A stretch of 64,000 bases of DNA from Mytilus galloprovincialis (Eukaryota > Mollusca > Bivalvia > Mytilida > Mytilidae): contig NC_134841.1 of NCBI RefSeq assembly GCF_965363235.1, positions 58,487,078 to 58,551,077 of the forward strand, read 5' to 3'. A program made the position numbers and the translations under genes. Numbering within the stretch: position 1 is the stretch's first letter; every line of letters begins with the position of its first letter. The notes below the pieces were generated by a model that saw nothing but the letters and a program-made list of their open reading frames with translations, searched no databases and had not been told where the DNA came from. Below are positions 974 through 57,970 of the stretch, one piece after another.

Positions 974-3900
974 CATTCCTTCTATAACTTTTCCAAAAAC
1001 AACATGTCTACCATCTAACCATTCGGTCTTTTTCGTTGTTAAAAAGAATTGCGATCCATTTGTATCTTTACCAGCGTTAGCCATGGACAACCATCCAGAT
1101 CCATAATGCTTCAGCTTAAAGTTCTCATCAGCAAATTTTTCTCCATAAATACTTCTACCTTTAGAAAGAGAAGAGAAATGAAGATCAATATATTAATTAT
1201 CTACATGTAAATAACTCTTAACAGAATTATCATATATATTCTGTTATACAACCTGCTAGGTAACAGATTGTTAAATCTAATATCTAATATAAAATACTAA
1301 TGACTCAAGTCCTCTGGAGTGAATCTGTTTGCAGAAAATACATATATGACTAATTCATTTTCTGACAAGAATTCTTGACAAGGTTAACTTGCTTGTGGCT
1401 ATATATATATATTTGTCTACCTATATATTTAAAACTGCCAAATGTTTCTGAATTAACAGTTGTATCCTTTTTTTTTTAATATTGTGTTTTTACAGGCTGA
1501 ATATTTTTTATTAAAATATGACAAATTTCAGCATATGGACAAATTAGTATGGTTAGAGGAATGGTTGAGCACTCAAAAACATGTTGTGCCACATTCTTTA
1601 TGTGCCTGTACGAAAGTCAGGAGCCTCTTATTCAGAAGTTGTTGTTGGTTGAGGTAGATCCAAAAAATATCATGCTTTTGGTTTTCTTGTTTTAATTCCT
1701 TTCACATTTTTCATAGTGTGGCTATTTATTGCTGACTTCATTGTATTGATTTTGTTTATTGTTGAAGCTTGTACAGTGACCAATAGTTCCTAACATGTGT
1801 ATATGCACATCACGAACTCTGGTTGATAATAGTCTCATTTTCGATTATATCACATCTCTATTTATTTTATACCATGATAAAGATACTGTAAATTCAAAAA
1901 TTATTGCGTGCATTTATTATCGCAATTTTGTCATTTTAATTTTCATGATTTTGAGAAAGGTCCTGCTTAATTCAGATATAATATTACAAAATGTGAGTTT
2001 AAATTATTTCTTTTATTCACAATAATAAAAACCTCGCAATAATTTCGAACTTTACAGTAGTTCTTCCTCTACATAATACAAACCTCCAGTTCCATCTCCT
2101 CTTGTAAAGTCACCTCCTTGAATCATAAAATCTTTAATAACTCTGTGAAATTTACTTCCCTTGTATGTTAAAGTTTTACCATCTCTCTCCTAAAATAACA
2201 AAGAAAATATCTTTTACTTTTTTTCAAATTCTTTGTCATTTTGAATTTGTCATGGACATGATGTACATGTATGTTCCTTAAAATTAAAAAAAAAGACCTG
2301 AATATATCTATTTTCTGTATTAAAAACCTAAATGTTTTAAGTTGATCCTATTGTATTGGGGTCAACAACTTTCATATCTACTTCTTCAAAATAGTCATCA
2401 TATATCACTGAAGAAATATTGCCAAAATCCTTATCCATATAAACTTAAAATAAAAAATATCACATTATCATGAAATTTGCTACTATTTCTCCAAAGTAGA
2501 ATAAATGTTTGTTAAGTTTCAGTTTTTCTTTAAGTATCTCCAACTATCTTCAAGTAAGAAATACACGAACATTATGATGATGAACATTTAATGCGCCTTT
2601 TCATCCATACCTCAGTTCCTTCTGCTAATGTTTTAAAATTCTTCACAGTTTTAGGGACAGTCTTTCCAAATAAACCAATAACAATTCTGCCAGCTTTTTC
2701 TCCTCCAATTTCTATATCAAAATAGACCTGTTAAAAAACAAAATATTGTATGATGCATTGCAAAAATGAACACGCGGCACCAGTAGATAAAACTAGAGGC
2801 TCTAAAGAGCCAGTGTTGCTCACAAAATTCTTTGGGTATCTTCTGCAATGGGACACTTTCCAATATTGTGGACTAGAAAAGAATTCATGACATACAATGT
2901 ACATCCCTTTAAATGTTGATCTTAAAATTAAAATTGAGAATGGAAATGGGGAATGTGTCAAAGAGACAACAACCTGACCATAGAACAGACAACAGCAGAA
3001 GGTCACCAACAGGTCTTCAATGCAACGAGAAATTCCCGCTCCCAGTCTGCACCGTTAGCCACTAGTCCGATGCCCCAGACTAGTAAATATTGATTCAGAC
3101 TAGTGAAAATTTTCAAAATTTTATATAGTCATATAGGGACAAGTTGTGATATTTATTTTCCGGACTAGTAGATGAAAAAGTTTTTGGCGCAGACTGCGCA
3201 CCTGGAAGCGTCCTTCAGCTTAAACAAATATATATACTAGTTCAGAGATAATGAACGCCATACTCTAAATTGTACACAAGAAAATAAAATTGTCTCTTTC
3301 TTCAATTTTGTTGTAAACACAAAAAGGGTAAACACTTGTCATTAAAGGCCATCACTCCTATCAAGAGTCTACCAACAATTTTGGGGAAACTTGATCCATT
3401 CAAACATTCATTTTTTTCTATTCCACCAGCACATTCATTGTCTAGGGATTGGATATCTATATATTTGCAGGAATTGCTGAAAAGGCAACAACTTGTGGGT
3501 GGTAACTTTTCTGAATAGCATATTGTTTCAGAGTTTGATCCCTTCATAATGTGGATTTTTCTGGAAAAGCCTCTAAGCAAAAAATACTACATTGTACTAA
3601 ACTGAACAAATACAATTTTTTTATTTTTTTTGTTAAATTCCAAAATAAGCAATTTTATACAAGTTTATCCTATTTACGACGTAACATGTTTCAGTTTGAT
3701 ATGCAACCATGCATGGACTCAAATTATAACAAAGAGTTCAACAACATTTGTCATACATCACATGTATCTTTAAAACGTGAGGTCGGTACCAGGTGCTATT
3801 TAAATATGTACATGTACATTGTATATGGACCATAATTTGCTATTGGGCTCGTTTCCTATAACGATAGAAAAGTGATAAAAATGTGTAATACTGTAAGAAA

Positions 3901-6900
3901 AGTTGTAACTACATCTAAAGATGCCTTTATTTTTATCAACATACAAGTGTATGCTACTCTTCCCTAGAAAAAAAATTGAAATTAACAAATTTCAAAGATT
4001 ATACGACAGTATTTTTGTGTTGTTTCTCGCGTTACTTTTCGCTTCCGAAGTGCATAACGCTGACTGATTTATAGATAATCGTCACCGGCAAATTCGTAAC
4101 TTTTGCTTTCAAATAATAAAGAACATCGACCAATAAGAATAGTCAGAAGAAAATGCAGAGAACTATAAGTATTTCTGTAGCAGGTGTAAGAACATTAGCG
4201 TTACTTTGGTTTCCAATTTCGTAACGCAAATTTTAGATGATGTAATCTGCTTTGTTGTAATAGAATTCTTTATAACAATATGCAAATATGAACTCTCGCG
4301 AGATGTTCAAACAGGTAAATCAGAGATGATTTACATTCTAGTTTTGTTCTTCGTAATAATTAAGTTAGAAAATGACATTATCGTTATGCGTTACATTTCA
4401 AACGAAACAGAAGTCCAGTTATTTCCTTTTTTTTATTAAAATTGTTTTTGTGGTTAAGTTCTAATCATTTCCGGTCATACGTGAAACATGTGACTAACAT
4501 GTGATCACGCCCTTACGGCCGGATGTATGAAATACTAGGTCTAAAAATTGTTTTCGTTTCCAACGGGATGTTAGCAAACATAATCTGTAGACTTGTTACG
4601 TCTTGTTTAAAAAAGGAAAATACAATTTTCAAAGAGATTGCACCGGGGGTCTATTGTTTTTCCTATGTGCATAATGTTACATACGATCTTGTGTGAAAAT
4701 AAATGCCCATTGACTTAACAAAATTGATTTCAGATTTGACAGACGTTATGACACACTTTGTTTCCTGATAACGATGTAAAGGGTCCTTGGAAAATTCAAT
4801 TGACATTACGTCTCTTATCATTGTGCAGATGCTCGTTGGATTGATTTTGCTTCAGCAGTAAATATTACTGGATATTTTAGGTGAATAAAGATAACTTGAT
4901 AAAAAATACATGTTAATATACCGTTACACTTGGAATGTACAAAGTTGGTATCTTTGTCACAATTTTTAATTATTTTTTTTTATTCATGTTCTGCAAACAC
5001 TTTTCAGAAACGCAATAAACTTGTCAAAGGAGAAGTAAACTTTTACCATGCATGACTTGAAAGGAAGTACTTTATTGATTTTAGCCCACTAAAGTAGGTT
5101 AAAATGTGGAAACCATGTAGATGGTGTACAGGTCACAAATATCACATGGTGCCTATTTTAAAGATTTTAATTCCAAGTTAAAAGTTTTTTTCTTTACTGG
5201 ATTTAAAGAATTTTACATTGCCAATGATTTGGAATAAAATGTATACAACTGGAATTTCAAAACCAAATATAAATACATTTTTTTGACTAAAACATCAAGA
5301 TACAACGATTATGGTATCCTGTATCAATGAAGAAAATAGGGAAATTTCTGAATAAATTGTACTAATTGTTTTCAAAACAAGCACATATTTAGGAGTTTTC
5401 TAATACTGTTACATTTAAGATGGATTTTAAGAAAAAGTATACTGTTCAGACTATTTTAAGCAGATTTTGCAATAAAATAAAACTAAAAAAACGCTTTCGG
5501 TTTCTTATGGTTTCCTGTCGCGTTTAAAAAAAACTTTAATTAAACATTGAAAATAAATTTTAAATATTAACATGAAGCAAGTAACACTAGTAATGGTGTT
5601 CATTTATGTCTTTTGAAATATATGGTACAAAATAAAGAAAATAAAGATTGGTTTCCTGTTTGGTTTCCTGTCATGTAAACGGTGAATCAAAATGTATTAT
5701 TTTATCTTGAAAAACTCAATTGTTCCATTAATACTATTTTAACACCAACACAACCCACAGAACATGCAGAATAAAAGTTAAAGTTTTAGAACTTATAAAA
5801 AAGGATACAAAAAGAAACCAAAGGCCGAATACCAAATTATGGTCCATATATTATATTGTTGGTAACCGTTAAAAAAAGATAAGTGCCAGTGCCCAAGGAT
5901 TTGTATAGTATAACTAAGGGGGTCTCATTGGGGGGCCCTGATCCCAGATCCCGCTTACTGTTTTGTCAGATTCCTGTATCCCGCTTTCACTAAGTATGTA
6001 AGAAATTTTCATTTTTTGCAATTTCCCGTGTCCCGCTAGACTTCATTTCCCAATATCACGACACAATACTTTGACTTTCATGTGTCATGCTTTATACTAG
6101 TCCAAATAATTATGACGTCTTGAAAGGCTATTATAATTTTTTTCTTTGACGCCTTACATCAACGTCATAACGCCAAACTCATATATTCAGTTGGACTTTG
6201 ATAAGGAATTTACTGCTTTATAAAAACGTTTAGCTGATTTCTCCTCTAGATGCTTCATTTAAGGTGTATAAAATATAATTTTGAACCAAACTCGGTACAT
6301 TTTGACCAACCTGAATTTCCGGATAATGTAAAACAATGGTTCCGGAAATTCGGGTTTTACCGAGTTTGGTGTAAAAATTATTTTATAATCTCCTAAAAAG
6401 AAATCCGACAAACGTTTTAAAAAATGCAGTCGACATGTTCCCGCCTCGGATGGAATTGTTACTTATATTATTATTTCTGTAGGGATTAATTGGAAATATT
6501 TTCGTAAAACAAACACATAAAAGGTAAGAATTTTTATATATGCATTTTGTTTTAGCCTTCTTTGAAATTTGATTGCTAAATTGGGTCTCAAAGTTGAGAG
6601 CAAAATATGCTCTCAAAGTCCAACCGAAAATGGCGGCTTCAGCATTATGACGTCGAAGTAAGGCGTCAAAGAAAAAAATTATAATAGCCTTTCAAGACGT
6701 CATAATTATTTGGACTAGCTTTATACAAAAAATTGACAATCCCATGTCACGCTTAGACCCCAATGAGGACCATTACTAACTTATAAGTTACTATAGTCCA
6801 AATAATTATGACGTCTGGCAAGGCTATTTTATTTTTTTTCTGGGACGCCTTCCTACGAAGGAAAGTTACTATACAAATCTTTGCTCATGAATTAGTTATT

Positions 6901-10276: not shown

Positions 10277-12252
10277 ATTGTTTTTCTAATGTTTTTTTTT
10301 TTTTCTTTTTTTTCTTTTTTTTCTTCCAACATTTTTTTGACATGCCCGCCCCTTCTTTCTGTTAAAGTTACCAAGACCAAATATGGACCATTGATAGACC
10401 TCATCATGCAGTTTTACCAAATGACCCTGTTAAGGATTTCATCATCCTCTTTAGAAGTTATCTTCCTTTTATTGATTTTTTTCAACACGGCATCCCCTCG
10501 TTGTTTTTAAAGATATCATGACATTATTTGGACAATAGGTAGATCTCATCATAATTTATTACCATATGAGGTTGAATAGGATTTCATTGTCCCCTATGAC
10601 AGTTATATCCCCTTGAAACAATTTCTTTCCTTTGCATTTTTCTCAAAAAGTATAAGAGATAGAATTGATTTGAAAACGGCAACATGTACAGGAACAGATG
10701 GCAATGTTAATGAACATATACAATCATTTTGTTATTAACCCTTATAAGGAGTTATTCCCATTGAAAAGTCGTGTACAATTTAAAAAAAAATTGTATTTCC
10801 AGAACCGGAAGTCGTAGAGACTTGGGACCTTCACCAATAATCTTTAATTCATGTGACCTTTAATATGCACCCAAGGTCAAAGGTCACAGAGTGCAAAATT
10901 AAATTACGCTGCAATTTCAAGCTTACATATTAGGAAAACGATAAGACTTTGCTGCATACATACAGCGTATAAAAAGTTCCTCTCGACGAGCTCTACATTT
11001 TATATAATAAGCCCAAAAATGTCCGACCGTCTGTTCAAAAGTTACAACGGGCTGATTCTTAAAAGTATAGTATTTTGTGTATATCTTTTTAAAGGCAACA
11101 GATATCAACCTACTATAAACTGCAAAGATAATCAGTAATTCAAGACCTTCAATTTGAGGTCAATGTCAGGTAATGATGAAATTTCACCTTGACCTTCACT
11201 GTATACAATGACCTTGACCTTGTGGTATTTGAAAAGTTAAGTGGTCCTGAGTTGAATGGTGCTAGTCCCATGTTTCTACGACTTCCGGTTCTCAAGTATT
11301 GTATTGCATCATATATTTGATGATTAATTGTGACCTTGGTGAACTTTGAAATTGTCCCAATTCTTTTTCTATAATGTTGTCCTTTAAATGTAGATCATTT
11401 ACCATTGAAAAGATTTGAGATATCTATTGTTGTTTTAGAGATAATGTAGTTTGAAATTTTGCGAGCGGCGGCATGTATTTCTGAATTCACAACAGCTTAC
11501 CACTTAAAATGTTTAAGAAATTGAAGAGGTTAACATAGTTATATGTTTGACCAAATACCAGAAACATTCCATTGAAAAAAACACCAAAAAATCATTTTGA
11601 AATTTTCATGTTTTGCATTGACTTTGTAAGTTTCATAACTTCTATTTATATCGTTGATATTGCATCATTTTTGGCACTTTGTCAAATGGGGTCATCTGAT
11701 ATATCAAATTGAAGGTCTCAATAAACTCTACTTAAAAATGAAAATTTTAAACCTCCTTTTCATCCCAGGTGGAAGGGTGGGGTCATTTAGAGCAAACATT
11801 CAAATTTCGCAGATGGTAAGGTTGTCGCATATCAAATGAAAGAACATAAAGGGTACATTTCAAATTTCAAATTGACGTCCCCCAAAAATTGGTTGGATGG
11901 GGTCATTGAGTGCAAAAAAATCAATTTTCTTTTACAATAGGGTTGTTGTATATCAAATGAAAGGTCATGATGTGTACATTTGCAATATCAAATTCCCAAC
12001 CTCCAAAAATTGGTTGGATGGGGTTATTAAGTGCAAAAATCAAACTTTTCTGAACATGGCGTTGTCGCATATCAAATGAATGCTTATATACCCTGTATTA
12101 CATATACATCATACTTCCGATCTCAAAAATATAGGTGGATGAGGTCACTAAGTGTAAAAAGCGAAAAGTTTCAGAAGGTATGCTTGTCGTATATCAACCG
12201 AAAGGTCGTACAAAGTACATTACGAAAAAATCACTTTTACGGGAAAGACCTT
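10277..12252. repeat. Long tandem repeat, copy A (about 1.976 kb)
   Basis: Matches 12253-14226 along its whole length with a constant offset of 1974-1977 bases, interrupted only by small indels. Internal layout: a poly-T tract, an inverted pair GAACCGGAAGTCGTAGA (near 10801) and TCTACGACTTCCGGTTC (near 11273), a perfect DR1-like AGGTCAAAGGTCA at 10874-10886, clustered TGACCT half-sites near 11190-11220, then five degenerate subrepeats of about 120 bases whose common core is CATATCAAATGAAAG (11.69-12.20 kb). Short open frames in the subrepeats look like a by-product of repetition; I see no recognisable protein. Confidence 0.85.
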
Positions 12253-14226
12253 TCAATTGTTTTACAAACAATTGAGATACTAGTTTTTTCTTTTTTTTCT
12301 TCCAGCATTTTTTTGGCACGCCCTCCTACCGCTTCTATTGGAGTTATCAATACCAAAATTGAATCATCGATAGACCTAAACATGAACTTTTACCAGATGA
12401 ACTTTTGTAGGATTTCACCATCCCCTTTAGAAGTAATCTCCCTTTTATTGATTTTTTTCAACATGGTCCCCCACAAATGTGTTAAAAGATATCATGACTT
12501 TATTTGGACAATATGTAGATCTCATCATGATGTATTACCATATGAGGCTACATAAGATTTCATCATTCCCTTTGAGAGTTGTATCCCCTTGAAGCAATTT
12601 CTTTTAGTTGTATTTTTCTCAAAAAGTATTACTGATAGAATTGAATTGAAAATGACAGCATGTATAAGAACAGATGGCAATGTTTATAAACATAAACAAT
12701 TAATTTGTTACTAACCCTTATATGGAGTTATTTCCCTTTAAAAATTTAAAATAATTTTTCAAAAATTCTATTTCGAGAACCGGAAGTCATAGAGACTTGG
12801 AACCTTCACCAATAATCTTAAATTCATACGACCTTTAATATGCACCTAAGGTCAAAGGTCATCGAGTGCAAAAAAAATATTAAGCTGCAATTTCAAGCTT
12901 ACATATTAGGAAAACGATAAGACTTTGCTGCATACATACAGCGTATAAAATGTTGTTCTCGACGAGCTCTTCATTTTATACTATAAGTCCAAAAATGTCC
13001 GACCGTCTGTTCAAAAGTTGCAACGGGATAAGTCTTAAAAGTATAGTATTGTGTGTATATCTTTTTAAAGGTAACAGATATCAACCTACTATAAACTGCA
13101 AAGATGATCAGTAATTCAAGACCTTCAATTTGAGGTCAATGTCAGGTCATGACGAAATTTCACCTTGACCTTCACAGTATACAATGACCTTGACCTTGTG
13201 ATATTTGAAAGGTTAAGTGGTCCTGAGTTGAATGGTGCTAGTCCCATGTCTCTACGACTTCCGGTTCTTAAGTTTGGTATTGCATCATATATTTGATGAT
13301 TAATTGTGACCTTGGTGAACTTTGAAATTGTCCCAATTCTTCTTCTATAATGTTGTGCTTTAATTGTAGATCATTTACCATTTAACAGATTTGAGATATC
13401 TAGTGTCATTTTAGAGATAATGCAGTTTGAAATTTTGCGAACAGCGGCAAATATTTCTGAATCAACAACAGTTTACCACTTAAAATGTTTAAGAAAGTGA
13501 AGAGGTTAACATAGTTACATGTTTAACCAAATACCAAAAACATTCCATTGAAAAAAACACCCAAAAAAGCAAATTGAAATTTTCAAGTTTTGCATTGACT
13601 TTGTGAGTTTCATAAGTTCTATTTATATAGTTGATATTGCATCATTTTTGGCTCTTTGTCAAATGGGGTCATCTAATATATCAAATTGAAGGTCTTACTA
13701 AACTCTGCTTAAAAATGAAAATTGTAAACCCCTTTTTCATCCAAGGGGGAAGGGTGGGGTCATTTAGTGCAAAAATTCAAATTTATCAGATGGTAAGGTT
13801 GTCGCATATCAAATGAAAGAACATAAAGAGTACATTTCAAATTTCAAATTGACGTCCCGAAAAAAATGGTTGGTAGGGGTCATTGAGTGCAAAACATAAA
13901 TTTTCTTTTACGATAGGGTTGTTGTATATCAAATGAAAGGTCATGATGTGAACATTTGATATATCAAATGCCCGACCTCCAAAAATTAGTTGGATAGGGT
14001 TATTAAGTGCAAAAATCAAACTTTCTAGAACATGGCGTTGTCGCATATCAAATGAAAGCTCATGTACTCTATATTACATGTATCATACTTCCAATCTCAA
14101 AAATGTAGGCGGATGAGGTCATTAAGTGTTAAAAGTGAAAAGTTTGAGAACGTATGCTTGTGGTATAACAAACGAAAGTTCGTACAAAGAACATAACGAA
14201 AACATCACTTTTACAGGAAAGACCTT
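12253..14226. repeat. Long tandem repeat, copy B (about 1.974 kb)
   Basis: Second copy of the unit at 10277-12252, with the same order of parts: ACCGGAAGTC inverted pair (about 12778 and 13252), DR1-like AGGTCAAAGGTCA at 12849-12861, TGACCTTGACCTT cluster near 13186, and CATATCAAATGAAAG subrepeats to 14.18 kb. It ends in GGAAAGACCTTTCAATTG, as does copy A at 12242. The copies differ by scattered substitutions, so the duplication is not brand new. Confidence 0.85.
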
Positions 14227-45797: not shown

Positions 45798-46141
45798 TTA
45801 AAATGAAATAATTTTGTTTGTTAATTCTCTAATTTTTCCTCTTCAAAACCAAGGAAGTTAGAAAATGTCTAGCATGTTACATATATGGTAACTTGTTAAC
45901 AATTTTGAAATGGATGCTATATTCTGTTACGCGTTGTCCTTTATTTAAAACCTCTTCATTCTATTAGCTTATCAGATTTCAATCTTGAAAATTGATTTGT
46001 TAATTTCCATATTGAAATCTAGTGTTGTCCCAAGATAAATACACAGAAAGAAAACAACAAAATGTCCTTGCATCATTAAACGAAGAAAAAAAACTTCAGT
46101 TGCAAATGTTTGATTACTTTGTTCAGGAAGTAAATAGTATT

Positions 46142-46386
46142 ACCTTTGAGATGTTCCTGTATCACTTTATCATTATTACCTTTGAGATGTTCCTGTATCA
46201 CTTTATCATTATTACCTTTGAGATGTTCCTGTATCACTTTATCATTATTACCTTTGAGATCTTCCTGTATCACTTTATCATTAATACCTTTGAGATATTC
46301 CTGTATCGCTTTATCATTATTACCTTTGAGATGTTCCTGTATCACTTTATCACTATTACCTTTGAGATGTTCCTGTATCACTTTAT
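46142..46386 (-). repeat. 36-bp minisatellite, seven units, covering an exon-intron boundary
   Basis: On the minus strand each unit reads ATACAGGAACATCTCAAAG followed by GTAATAATGATAAAGTG and encodes IQEHLKGNNDKV. Spacing is exactly 36 bases. Every unit contains AAAG|GTAATA, a usable splice donor. The frame stays open across all units. Confidence 0.9.
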
Positions 46387-49300
46387 GAATTTTGGCCTGT
46401 TGTAACCTGGGATCTTTTTCTGGCGTAATTTGTATGACCTGCTGAACAACTGAAAATCAAATTACAATAGATTACAGTTTCAAGTACCAGAGATAAATAT
46501 ATCAATATAAGTTTGCTTGTTTATGTTCATTTAAGGCAGTATATTTAATCCAACACTTATTTTCAGGTAATCTGCATGCATTCTTTGTTCAAGTGTTATG
46601 TGTTACCAACATAAAATCTGCTTTTAGATGTAAATAGATGATGCCTTATGACTGTATCAATCTACCAACAAATACACAAACCCAATTTGTCAAAAATCAT
46701 ATATACAAGTCGGTATTGCACAATATCTGGTTGATTAGTTGGTGCTATGGCTTTCTATGACATTTATAATGCTTGAGTGTCTTCTTCATTTACACACACA
46801 TCCCGTAAAAGGCCAGCACCAATTCTTGCAGTCATCTGCGGATTGACACTGTGCTGACCTCTGTGCTTCTGTCAGCAGGAACTGATACTGTGGGTTGTCT
46901 ATTGAAAACAGAAAAAGTAATAATACTATGTACCTGGTATTTTCAATCTCTATCATATAATTAGTAGTGCAATACAAATATTTAGTATACCATAGTGACT
47001 GCTCTAAATATGCATCATGACTGAGAGGATTTATGTTAGATTGTCAACGTATATTTGTTCCGCCTAACAGAAGTTCCAATGGAAACTTTGTTATAAACAT
47101 TGTCATAATATCTATTCCTGTTGGAACAAATATTCTATACCATTTATTCCGTTAGGAACATATACTGTAATATTTATTCCTGTGGAAATATTTATATTTC
47201 AGATTCTAATATGACGTGCTTCTTTAGCTTTGTAAAGAAACCATACTTTATTATCCAATAAAATTAGTTTACACATGCGTATACTGACTACGGCAGAAAA
47301 ATGAATTTTATCAAATTGGTATACACATTTAATGTATTTCATTAGCTTGGGACATTTTCAAACACTAAAATATGATACACATTTTGTTACTAATACTTTT
47401 ACAATGACAACAATGTGTTACAATTCGAAATTGACATATTTGACCTAGATACCGCAATGTTCATGTTGGCTGTTCAAATCCAAAACCCCTCCCTCTGAAA
47501 AATATGTTTCATCTATCCTGTTAAAAAGCATGTATATAATAATTTCATTGAAACATATGATCTGACGATAAAATATAAAATAAAGTATAGGTTAATTATA
47601 ACTGTTGTACTGAAATGACAAAATTGTTTCATATTTATGATAAAATGGATTGACCCTAGCAGGGAATCGAACCCCAATCTCCTATAAAAAAAAATAGGCG
47701 TAATTACCAATATACCACCAAGGTTTCCAATCCATTTTACAAATGCAACAAGATTGTCACTCAGTATTAATTTTAATCATCATGTAATACAGCATTTGAA
47801 ATCGTCAGATGCACAAAGGCGTGCCCTTTCATCAACTTTACAGGGTGTAGCTATCGCAAGTATAGTCCAAATAATTATAACGTCTGACAAGGCTTTTTTT
47901 TCTTTCTGGAACGCCGTTGTAGGAAGGCATCCCAGAATTTTTTTTAAAATAGCCTTGCCAGACGTCGTAATTATTTGGACTAACGCAAGTATAAATGAAT
48001 CTCTGTCAAAGGGCCCCTCCTGCCAAGTCTTGAATGTCAGCACAACTTTATCAAGGAATCCTCTATCAGATATGAACATATTTACCAAAGCTACAATAAC
48101 CAGCGGAACATTTACAATTAATTTAGTAAATAAAGATCGACCTACCTGATTCTTCTTGTGCGTCCACCGCCATTGACAACTGACTTGAAAATGTGTATGT
48201 CAGAAATTGACCTCAAAGAAAAAGACGTTGAATTATAACTTTTCTGTTATATTGTGACACAGATATTGTTTAAGTTCATAAATTTGTTAATTTCCGTTTC
48301 AACTTTAAATTTTAGAAATACAACTTTGCGAAATTAAACTGGTTTAAAACTAGTTGGATAAAAATCGACAGGGAGGTTGATGGAATAGCCTACACAAATA
48401 CTGTACACTTATACACAGCGAACATAGAAATTACCATAATTGTCCTAATCAGAATCGAAATAATTGATGCCAGCTATACTTTATTTTAGTTTTAACATGG
48501 GTAGGCATTATATTTGTGTTATTTTAGCCCTCGCTATCGCTCTGGAAAAAATAATCACGAATATAATGCCTACCCATGTTAAAACTACAATAAAGTTTAG
48601 CTGGCATCAATTATTTCTTAAATATATTTTCCTTTTGGAACTTATATTATGAAGGAACTTCTATTCCGTGACAAGATTTCCTTGCATATTCAAAATTCTT
48701 GCAAATCTTCAGCTTGTCCATCATATGCATTGTTGTGTATCATGTTTAGTTTGTGACTTAACCATTGACTTAAATATCAATTGAATGATACAGATCTGAC
48801 AGAACATTTTTCTGAAATGACTCTCGTGCAAATCAAAAATAGGAAAGTTTAATATTCAAATAAGTCTATTTTCAGCTGTAGGTCTTTCAAAAACTTACCC
48901 TGTTGTAGAACACTATTCATCTGGGTCAATATCCCTAATGGACCTTGAGATGAGGAACTCATATCTATGAAGTTATTAAAAAAAATGTCAGTCCACCATA
49001 CAATTGTTGATGCTGTGATTTTAAAAATGAACATATTTAATGAACAATAAGACCTGTTTAATAGAGCTGATGTGATGAGTAAAGAAATAAGTAGAATTGA
49101 CCTTAAATAAATTATTTATTTAATGAATTTTATGTTAAGAATTTGGGGATTATTTCATGAGGAGAATGACATTTTTTATCATCTTCTAGGGTCCAGCAAT
49201 TTGTGAAATAAGTAATTTCACTTGTCACCCTGAAAATTTAACCAGTATCAGCTTCGATATGAGCCACCATACATATTCTAGTAAATGATATGGACTGAGC

Positions 49301-53359: not shown

Positions 53360-54691
53360 CATGATATGTTTACATACAAGATGTGATTGATTGCTTCCAA
53401 GCCATACAATCACAATGGGGCATATCAGAATCTGGTAGAATGAATTGAACCAAATATGTTCATTTTGACTTTTTACAAGAAAGTTGCCGTCTGAAATCTC
53501 ATCAATGTCACTGCTTGGAATATTTGCTCCTATCTCAGAAAGCAGTGATCAATAAATTTTCTAGGACGATTCTTCAGTAAATCTGGTATGTCCTCACCAT
53601 ACCCTCTAGCCAATGCAGAGGCTGCTGCATTTAAATGTAAATATCTAGAAAAAGAGAGAATGAATATTTTTGAGAAATGTATACTTTAGAAAAAACTGAA
53701 GTTGTTTACAATTACTACATTTGTACAATCATTTTTAAATAAAATTAACTTTTTCACAAACAAATAAATTATCACATAGAATGATGGTCAATAACAATAT
53801 AACAATACTGTTGAAAGAAAAACAATCTTTCATTAAACAATCTCAAAACATAGAACAACCTGAAATTACTTAAGAATCAACATATCATACACCAGGTCCA
53901 AGGGCATAGTTATACACCTATTCTCAGAATAAGTGTCCACGGTTGGAAAATAATTTCTAATTCAAAAAGTTGTAACAAACATCAATATTTATATTTTATT
54001 TCAAACATAAGCATACAACAAATCAAAATGCAAAACGGCAGATCTCAACCAATAGAAATAAAAAAGAAAATACAATGCCAAAATATGGGTATAGAGTATG
54101 CTGTAATCTACGTTTCAGGTACTTATGCATAGATTCAAATGAATAGTTCAAACATATTTTGTAAATTTGAATAGTTTTCAATGGCTAAATAAACTGATAA
54201 TAATACAGTCAAATAACTGTAAAAGTTTCTCCTCAAAATTCCTATTAAAAAAAAACATTGGATCGAAATATAAACTGATAAAAATTTGGTATAAAACATG
54301 ACAATAATATGACAGCTTACATTTTCAGTATTAAAAAACATGCTCAGTGTATGCAAACACTCTACATGTTGTGTATTGCCTCTCATCTGATGAAAAAATA
54401 ATTACTACACATCTTTTTAAAATGTTTTCATAACAAACTTGGATTGCCAACAATGAAACAATAACGTAAATTACACAAAACTGTAACGTATCTTACAAAG
54501 AAAAATTCTCTCATAATCAGGATTGTTTCATCCTTCTTCCTGAATTCTTTCAAAATGTATGAAAAAAGAAATATTGTAACAACATTTTGGGTGTTTTATC
54601 ATTAAACTGTAAATGTTTTACAAATATAACGTAAATTACACTTTATAAAAAAAGAATGTTCTTTCTTGATTTTCAGTTTTTAAGCATCTGT

Positions 54692-56385
54692 TTAAGTATT
54701 AGATCTTAACTGTAACAAACTACAGGCATTTCTATAGTCCTGAGGATCAATTTCAAAGCTTCGACCACTCCGTCCAACTTTATTGGGCTCTCTAATGTTA
54801 CACAATATGTCTGTGACCTGTAACCATATTTTGTCTTCTGGGTTTGGCCATTTATACAAAGGATTTCCAGTATTCCTTCCTTGACTTGGCCGCAAAAAAT
54901 TACATTTTCACACGGTAAATTTTCTTTCAGATTGTTTAAGGCTTGGTATTGAAGTCGAACTCTTGACACGTGTTCTTGAAAATCACGAACTTGAGTATGT
55001 ACAATTGAAATGAAGCTGTCCCTTGTTTCCTCTCTCTCAACAATTTTTGTTCTTTTTTTGCCATCTGCCATCTCAACCTTTTTCCACTGTTCATACCTGA
55101 CATTTTCATTTCGAATTTCTGAGAGTATCTCTGGGAGTGGCTTGTCTTTTAGCTGCCTTACAAATTCATCGGGATTGATGGTTACGTTGGCACCTGACGT
55201 TTTCATGTTCTTAAGGGCTAACGCCATGTTTTGGTGCTTTTGGCAGAGGCATTTATTTCTACTTAAATGTTTGGTCAGGCATATATGCTTTGGTCTCAAA
55301 CGACAGAAGGTAGCAAGTGAAATTTTCTTCGGTGACTCAGTTTTGAATTTGAGATGCAAAAATAACATGCTGTCGTTAAGAACTCTTTTTTGTATATGAC
55401 CGGTTTCAGTTTTCTTTTTATCGTTTTTGCCAGGCATCATTCTGCTATTATCGTCTCTTTCTAAGAATGTGACGACGTCTCCACGAAGTATTTCTCTTGA
55501 TTCTACACGCTTCCTCAATAAAGGAAAAGAGAGCAATTTGTTGGAACACACTGTGGCCTTGAAGTGATGACGTCTTATTCCGGATTTGATGCCTAACATT
55601 TTCTTCATCTTGTACTTCTTGATTATTTCTCCGTTAACAATTTTCTTCAAAACGTGTTTTCCCTTCAACCCATTTGATTTCTAAGCAGCCCCTATCTCTT
55701 CTGTTATAACATTTGCAAAGAGTAGTTTTTCCTGGATCTTTTTTGGAACCTTATGTGGTGTCAGACCCTCTTCTCTGATTTCTTGTATAGTTCTTTTTCT
55801 AGGTGTCAGAGCAATTGATGTTGATGTAGAAGGGCTATTTCTGGAGGAGGATGATGTAGTAGGATTTCTTATGATAGTTTGTGTTTTCTTTTCCCTGTTT
55901 ATTAATCTCTGATATCGCTTTGATACGGTCCTAATTTTTCTATTGAGTAGTTCATTTTTGTCTGTCAGGTCTGCTATTGTTCTTCTATGTTTGGCGTTGG
56001 CACGATTTACTCTAGTTCTGGTTCTTTTCTTTGTAGCCAGTGACGGTAACTTAACTATCAATTGTTCAGTCACAATGTTAACTGTAGATGTGACATCTGA
56101 TGATGATGATATTTCTGAACATTGCTCCAAGTTATTAGCTACTGTTTTGGTTTGCTCCAAATTATTAGCTACTGTTTTGGTAAGATTCTTTTTCTTTAGC
56201 CTATGTTGTCGAACCCATTCACGAACCTTTTTACGCCTTTCATTTGCCTTTCTTTGTGGCTTTTCTTCTATTGGCACATAGTATCCTTTGACTCTTTCTC
56301 TTTCTTTTTTAAGATAAGCTTCTCCTTCTTTCTGTTTTTTTCGCTCTCTATAGGCTTTCTGAATTTCAGCCTTTGATTTTCCCAT
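54692..56385 (-). pseudogene. Transposase-like ORF of the 4-kb element, one in-frame stop and a probable internal deletion
   Basis: From the Met at 56385 a 234-codon frame starts MGKSKAEIQKAYRERKKQKE, very basic, with RRKKVREWVRQHRLKKKN and a coiled Arg/Lys region (RANAKHRRTIADLTDKNELL). It stops at a single TAG (55681-55683); the same frame then stays open for 320 codons to 54706, including FCRLRPKHICLTKHLSRNK and CLCQKHQNMALALKNMK (Cys/His cluster) and VSRVRLQYQALNNLKENLP. After about 54905 the frame loses sense, while the next frame reads NPLYKWPNPEDKIWLQVTDI to a natural-looking end at 54692. I remember unnamed mollusc and cnidarian proteins with both parts separated by a larger central domain, so I infer that the catalytic middle is deleted. 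Splice acceptor TTTTCAG precedes the start. Confidence 0.7.
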
Positions 56386-57109
56386 TTCTGAAAATAAAAT
56401 AAAATTTGATTAAATCAACAGAACACAAATTAACTACAGCATTATAAAGCCAGCTATCTGAAATGATGGTAGAAATTCTTTGATATACTCTTAATAAGAA
56501 TGCGTAATCTACGTTATCAAGTTGTGTAGTCTACGTTATAACATTTTGCACACGTTAAATGAGAGGATACTTGGAAATTAAATAGCAATGAAGCCGTTAA
56601 AATAACGATAAACACCCTTGCTGTTGTTTACATGCTTTCAAAACATGTTTGACTTGACACAGCAAAAGAAATGTTATAAATTATAAGCCTTTCTGTAGCC
56701 ATAAGTAAGCTACGTTATCAGGGATTCAAAGGAGCAAATATGCAATATATTTACACATCTGGATACACAATGGAATAAGTTTGCAAAATTCATGAACAAT
56801 TATGTCTATTTTTATAAATTTTTGGGATGCTAACTTCTTTGTACCTTATTTGTAGTCATAACATTCGGACACTACTGATCACGTAAATTACCAATTTTTC
56901 TAGTGTTTTTAAATTGAAAATACATGCTGTAAATGCTTATAGCCTCTAATGAATGCATCACAAAAGGTTTGATAAATATGCATTTAACTTTATATATAAT
57001 CTTGAATCACAACGAAAGACAATATAAACTCCTTACCTGAATTTAAGCTGAGTATTCCACATTCATATATTTTGAAAAACCTTGAAGGTCAAATGACGCT
57101 TTCCTTATA

Positions 57110-57117
57110 TGACGTCA
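57110..57117. promoter_or_regulatory. CRE palindrome TGACGTCA upstream of the transposon ORF
   Basis: Perfect 8-bp CRE, about 70 bases upstream (minus strand) of the inferred 5' UTR exon that ends at 57037. A plausible promoter element for the transposase gene. Confidence 0.4.
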
Positions 57118-57970
57118 GACGAAATATGAAAACAAAGAACCACTGGCGGTAGAATAACGTCAAAATTTCCGTACTAACGTCGCGTTTTATTGTCATATTG
57201 TATAGCAGGTAACGTAATTTACAAAACGTAAATTACAACCACCATCTATTTTCAATTTTTCAGCAAGTTCTAAAGCCTCAAATCTAAAACACCGGGTATT
57301 TAATTGGTCTTTACAATAAGGTGTACCTTTTAAGGCAAACAATAAGCATTAATTCACATACTTATGTTAGTAATCGCTATAACGTAACTTACAAGCTTAT
57401 AGCAACGCTCGTTTTCGGTTTCATAAAATGTAAAAAAAAATATTTCAATGAATTTCAAGACAAAGTTTGTACATATGTTTAACAGCAATACTTTTAAAAT
57501 AAGTTTGGTCTAGTTAACATTCGTTAAATACTATATGTAGTAAAATTGTATAAATTTTAAGCTTAACAACGTAGATTACATAGTTTTCGGCGACATCAGA
57601 AAAAAAGGTGTATTGAAAAAATGTATATATTTGAATGAGAACTGTTTTTTTCACTTTGTTGTAACGTTAATATGCTACAAGAAAACACTTTACATTGTTC
57701 AGAACTATAGATTGGTTTTTATTTGGCAGTTGTTTCATTATAGCCCTATGCCTGGCGACATGCATTTTTGGTGAAATTAGCGTACTTTCGACACTAAAAT
57801 TTTACTGAACTAATGTAGGCAAGTCAAATAAATTGATTGAAATCATTAAATTATATATATCTTCGTATAAAAATCACAATAATTGACAGATATATGCTGT
57901 AATACTCCCCTCGGGCATCAGCGACAAGGATTTCACAAGCGTGGACACTTATTCTGAGAATAGGTGTATA

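Follow-up and report, generated by a model that had tools for sequence, protein, structure and literature searches.

The 64,000-nucleotide stretch of Mytilus galloprovincialis DNA analysed here (the window; contig NC_134841.1, positions 58,487,078 to 58,551,077) carries at 53915..57966 an element that we read, with a probability of roughly 93%, as belonging to a young family of DDE/D-type mussel transposons, in which it is an internally deleted, non-autonomous copy. A full-length member of this family is about 4.97 kb long and has 27-bp terminal inverted repeats starting with CACC; GTAATYTACGTTAT motifs are arrayed inside either end, and a single gene encodes a transposase of 870 amino acids. 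The original prediction, made from the letters of the window, had described a DNA transposon that no familiar group matches well in its ends and target site, and that description stands, while several of its particulars need correction.

Inverted repeats occur in the window at 53911-53951 and 57930-57970. They had been described as perfect 31-bp terminal repeats; such repeats are present at both ends, but the perfect repeat, which begins CACCTATTCTCAG, is 27 bp long (53915..53941 on the plus strand, at the 3' end of the gene, and 57940..57966 on the minus strand, at its 5' end), and the remaining 4 bp are a target site duplication, TATA, at 53911..53914 and 57967..57970. The 27-bp repeat has exactly two matches in the window with up to three mismatches, and none in 100 shuffles. 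The genome search with the terminal repeat that had been proposed was fruitful: across 1.38 Gb in 331 contigs, the 27-mer with up to three mismatches gave 22 matches forming 11 inverted pairs, one of them the window copy, while the reversed pattern gave none in the same genome (copy counts are lower bounds, i.e., at least 11). The shuffles and the 11 genomic pairs together rule out a chance inverted repeat.

When the ends of the copies are aligned, all 11 begin with CACC and end with GGTG, as predicted from the window copy (4052 bp), and it is because they are seen at 11 copies that we take these to be the true ends. The terminal repeat is perfect over 27 bp in ten copies and over 25 in L018. 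Of the 11 copies, 10 are flanked by a perfect 4-bp duplication that differs in sequence from copy to copy: TATA (the window copy), TTTT, TACA, TGAA, CTCA, TAAC, AGTG, TACG, TTAA and TACA. The remaining copy, L009, adjoins 27-bp tandem arrays, is flanked by AAGT and AATA, and was left out of the target-site counts for want of a perfect duplication (n=10). Since the duplications differ between copies, TATA is one example of a 4-bp duplication, and the TA/TATA-specific insertion that had been suggested is ruled out. When read in the direction of the gene, these ten sites form a weak palindrome, Y-TNNA-R (loosely YTNNAR): T in the first position and A in the fourth together account for 14 of 20 cases (binomial p 9e-4, for a pattern spotted post hoc), and by simple counts the base before the site is a pyrimidine in 10 of 10 and the base after it a purine in 9 of 10. 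These ends and duplications are those of one mussel family only.

The motif arrays noted earlier at both ends are likewise real. In the full-length copy L010 there are 11 GTAATYTACGTTAT sites with up to two mismatches, where shuffles expect 0.09 and reach 1 at most. None of them falls within the coding frame: the 5' side has eight (388-1462), the 3' side three (4246-4782). At the same stringency the rest of the window (~60 kb) has one site; when three mismatches were allowed across the whole stretch, the count was not above chance (35 found, 32.2 expected). In the window copy the corresponding arrays, which are putative transposase binding sites, occupy 56503..57580 on the 5' side and 54102..54640 on the 3' side.

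Sister copies and the broken gene of the window copy

The window copy had been called complete, and this cannot be sustained: its ten sisters measure 4941-4993 bp, and a stop at codon 235 and a deletion that removes the catalytic core rule out completeness. The predicted Mytilus edulis protein P0001 (870 amino acids) matches the window over residues 1-496 with a single difference, W235 to stop, and matches again, in a different frame, over residues 802-870. On the minus strand, the first piece of the broken frame thus comprises codons 1-234 plus codon 235, now a TAG (55681..56385, the stop itself at 55681-55683); the frame continues through codons 236-496 (54898..55680) up to the join of a frame-shifting deletion at 54899..54902, and a C-terminal fragment in the other frame, encoding residues 804-870, the stop and the second half of a Tudor-like domain, follows at 54692..54895. 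The deletion, estimated at ~919 bp from the match coordinates, is joined at a 4-bp microhomology, TAAT, which is present at both edges in L010, and residues 497 to about 801 are absent. Gap repair that is interrupted after an excision leaves deletions of this type, and this may be one of them. No other related transposase was found in the window when 236 proteins were searched by tblastn, all matches falling at 54-57 kb.

The single transposase-like gene with a 5' untranslated region (UTR) intron that had been proposed is therefore not intact, but splice consensus does precede the ATG. The putative intron, CAG|GTAAGG...TTTTCAG|AA, spans 649 bp at 56388..57036 on the minus strand; the donor string is found in 11 of 11 copies and the acceptor in 10 (not in L015), and the length is 649 bp in 8 of those 10, 640 in L013 and 620 in L017, which is consistent with a 5' UTR intron ahead of the ATG. 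Near codons 69-88 the gene in the window contains a 30-bp in-frame tandem duplication (56122-56181, copies 97% identical), and the predicted M. edulis protein P0003 has a single copy of the duplicated peptide. For its first ~98 residues P0003 has no coding sequence in the window, and the transposase start follows; gene prediction may have joined an exon from outside to the transposase at the acceptor site.

Pairwise identity among the copies is 99.74-99.96% over ungapped columns, and of the counted substitutions one is common to two copies, whereas 49 occur in a single copy each. So high an identity marks the burst as recent, and the pattern of substitutions is that of a star-like expansion from one master sequence. 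The 870-codon frame is open in 7 of 11 copies (L010, L011, L012, L013, L014, L015 and L017); none of these seven is identical to P0001, and all have V in place of its M699. The family may accordingly be read, from its sequences, as possibly active in the present day. Besides the window copy, L016 is broken by a frameshift near codon 17 and L018 by one near codon 747, and the frame of L009 stops after 685 residues. The break in L009 is made by 29 extra bases found in this copy only (alignment columns 3607-3636, gene-forward), which are pyrimidine-rich, then read ACAG and resemble the 3' end of an intron. Eleven near-identical copies, seven of them open and one internally deleted with its ends intact, are a natural system for studying how non-autonomous copies originate.

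The transposase and its relatives

The predicted model of the transposase consists of charged N-terminal helices, a coiled coil (118-172), a compact RNase H-like core of integrase/mariner type and a C-terminal Tudor domain like that of PHF1/PHF19; Pfam gives a sub-threshold Agenet hint for the C-terminus (E 0.14). Structural matches to the core are retroviral integrase, Tc1-mariner (Mos1) and IS21 IstA. These share the compact RNase H fold, but no sequence similarity between them and the mussel transposase was detected in Pfam or the Protein Data Bank (PDB), and the long N-terminal helical region and the Tudor-like domain set the mussel protein apart from their cores. No hAT, RAG/Transib or P-element transposase was among the 50 structural matches listed, which excludes nothing. 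With the model of an insect relative the list was dominated by the Tudor-like domain, and 2 of 50 rows reach the core.

An alignment of the transposase was made from 65 of 117 relatives, picked as mostly full-length (another alignment took 17), and in it D500, D584 and D625 are conserved in 64, 65 and 65 sequences respectively; E616 is conserved too. We infer that D625 is the third acid, and the enzyme is probably an integrase/mariner-like DDD transposase on the evidence of the predicted model. The core spacing is D-83-D-40-D, with the motif GHGKGPCDGIGG; the distance between second and third acid is 40-43 residues, with no large insertion seen between them. A C/DxxH motif is absent between D584 and D625 in P0001, where ExxH is found instead at E616/H619.

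The suggestion that the transposase lies beyond common family models was borne out. Pfam gave no transposase-core match in 18 family members (searched at E<=1 for 10 and at E<=0.1 for 8), nor for the window pieces; NCBIfam gave nothing relevant for seven proteins, with two weak irrelevant matches, and PDB sequences, searched once with a piece of the window frame and once with the profile of 65 rows, returned two chance-level matches each time. We set aside HTH_Tnp_Tc5, above cut-off in P0122 (residues 776-841), and several domains below cut-off, including Dimer_Tnp_hAT in P0201 and Glycogen_syn in P0115 and P0122.

A protein search with the window frame, read through its stop, scored 7993 candidates and returned 117 relatives at E<=0.001, the named hosts being four Mytilus species, Ruditapes, Mya, Argopecten, Haliotis, three Branchiostoma, Danaus and Pyrocoelia. 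The core region of an insect relative returned 543 at the same threshold, and the named hosts among the best 120 of these are moths, butterflies and beetles. Molluscs and cnidarians had been proposed as hosts: mussels, clams, a scallop and an abalone support the former, but no cnidarian was named among the 117 or among the best 120 of 543, in which the majority of entries are without a species name. A precomputed Pfam domain is recorded for none of the 117 and for one of those 120, the HTH_Tnp_Tc5 of P0122. In a tree of 54 relatives, midpoint-rooted only, there are two deep clades, one of molluscs and amphioxus and the other of insects. Four relatives (P0022, P0046, P0083 and P0089) are filed under metagenome-assembled genomes of Sedimenticola and Candidatus Thiodiazotropha, and probably represent DNA of the bivalve hosts that was binned with their symbionts. 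Five scans of GTDB genomes and IMG/VR viral contigs with three queries (A1, A3 and P0010) yielded 24, 11, 72, 113 and 3 stretches that met the search pattern, none of which was confirmed as a related locus by tblastn.

Class assignment

In Repbase, DNA transposons are classified by how similar their transposases are and by their ends and duplications (PMC4455052), and 20 DDD/E superfamilies are listed in PMC9587614. A bivalve transposon survey relied on profiles of 17 superfamilies (PMC10294476), and a group outside these would therefore have been missed. Our tentative placement, for which we put the chances just short of even, is in an unnamed superfamily widespread in animals, characterised by a DDD transposase of ~870 amino acids with N-terminal helices, coiled coil, D-83-D-40-D core and Tudor C-terminus, divided into two deep clades and including a mussel family, possibly active now, with CACC ends and YTNNAR sites. 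If the superfamily is indeed undescribed, the annotation of transposons in molluscs, amphioxus and insects alike has a gap, to judge by the 117 and 543 relatives.

The family might instead be of Sola type (Sola1, 2 or 3), so that the superfamily would be known and only this mussel family new; we consider this credible but on the whole doubtful. Compared by description only, Sola is the known superfamily that fits best by its definition: Bao et al. 2009 reportedly defined it by a DDD transposase and a 4-bp duplication, and the mussel family agrees in its duplication and would agree in its triad if this consists of the conserved D500/D584/D625, E616 being conserved as well. Sola3 duplicates TTAA, which fits 1 of the 10 duplications here, and the ends of Sola elements are not known to match those of the mussel family. 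Sola1 and Sola2 families are present in bivalves (PMC10294476), and a Sola2 transposase of 888 amino acids is similar in length to ours; however, the Sola2 elements of amoebae make AT-rich AWWT duplications, and none of the ten here is of this form (PMC3627910).

It is unlikely that the family is a strongly diverged branch of some other superfamily already on record (CMC/Chapaev, Academ, Ginger, MuDR, PHIS/Harbinger or similar). CMC elements (CACTA/Mirage/Chapaev) have ends that begin CAC and a short duplication, and the mussel ends are reminiscent of them; CACTA elements also carry subterminal motif arrays. The CMC end, CMCWR, is not matched by CACCT, however, which is found in 11 of 11 mussel copies, and the mussel transposase gave no CMC match in Pfam. 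Ginger ends are TGT..ACA, against CACC..GGTG here, and the mussel family has no integrase-core Pfam match; Ginger1 and Ginger2 do share with it an integrase-like core, and their 4-5-bp duplication (PMC10045372) agrees in length. Duplications of 4 bp occur in Ginger1 and in parts of MuDR/IS256 (4-10 bp overall) and PHIS (0-4 bp; PMC10045372), and so this length alone does not decide against the three, which are disfavoured because there are no Pfam matches and no C/DxxH. The latter motif lies between the second and last acid in hAT, P, MuDR, Kolobok and Dada (PMC9587614), and hAT and P duplicate about 8 bp (PMC3706591) rather than four. Tc1/mariner duplicates TA, in contrast to ten varied 4-bp duplications, and piggyBac and ordinary Kolobok duplicate TTAA, found at 1 of 10 mussel sites, while the KolobokP lineage duplicates 3-5 bp (PMC9587614).

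That a host gene lies here within an inverted repeat of chance or structural origin, and the window copy is no mobile element at all, is scarcely credible. In its favour, no movement was observed; against it, 11 copies with the same ends lie at different places, 10 of them within 4-bp duplications of their own.

Proposed mechanism and other features of the window

For the mussel transposon family we infer an ordinary cut-and-paste mechanism. Transposase molecules, linked to one another by the coiled coil (118-172), would attach to the inner GTAATYTACGTTAT motifs as well as to the terminal repeats. D500, D584 and D625 of the integrase-like RNase H core would cut the ends and join them to the target, staggered by 4 bp, at sites that loosely follow YTNNAR, where the C-terminal Tudor-like domain may recognise chromatin. 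If the superfamily is undescribed, it also contributes a short-spaced DDD transposase with a domain resembling a histone reader, which would make chromatin-guided targeting of cut-and-paste transposition directly testable. The window copy cannot supply active transposase and would act as substrate only, but it keeps both ends and should therefore be movable in trans by transposase from its intact sisters. The arrangement recalls Ac/Ds, in which an internally deleted copy with intact ends also stands beside apparently intact autonomous copies; Ac/Ds is of the hAT type with an 8-bp duplication, and the analogy is one of working, not of kinship.

Elsewhere in the window are two tandem arrays of 120-121-bp units, at 11820-12080 and 13757-14058, which lie ~1.7 kb apart and are seemingly related (GGTTGTCGCATATCAAATGAAAGAACATAAA...), and a minisatellite at 46138-46386 with 6.9 copies of a 36-bp unit (96% matches). 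A tRNA-family match on the minus strand at 47652-47724 scores 42 bits, where the gathering score is 29, and may represent either a gene or a repeat derived from a tRNA.
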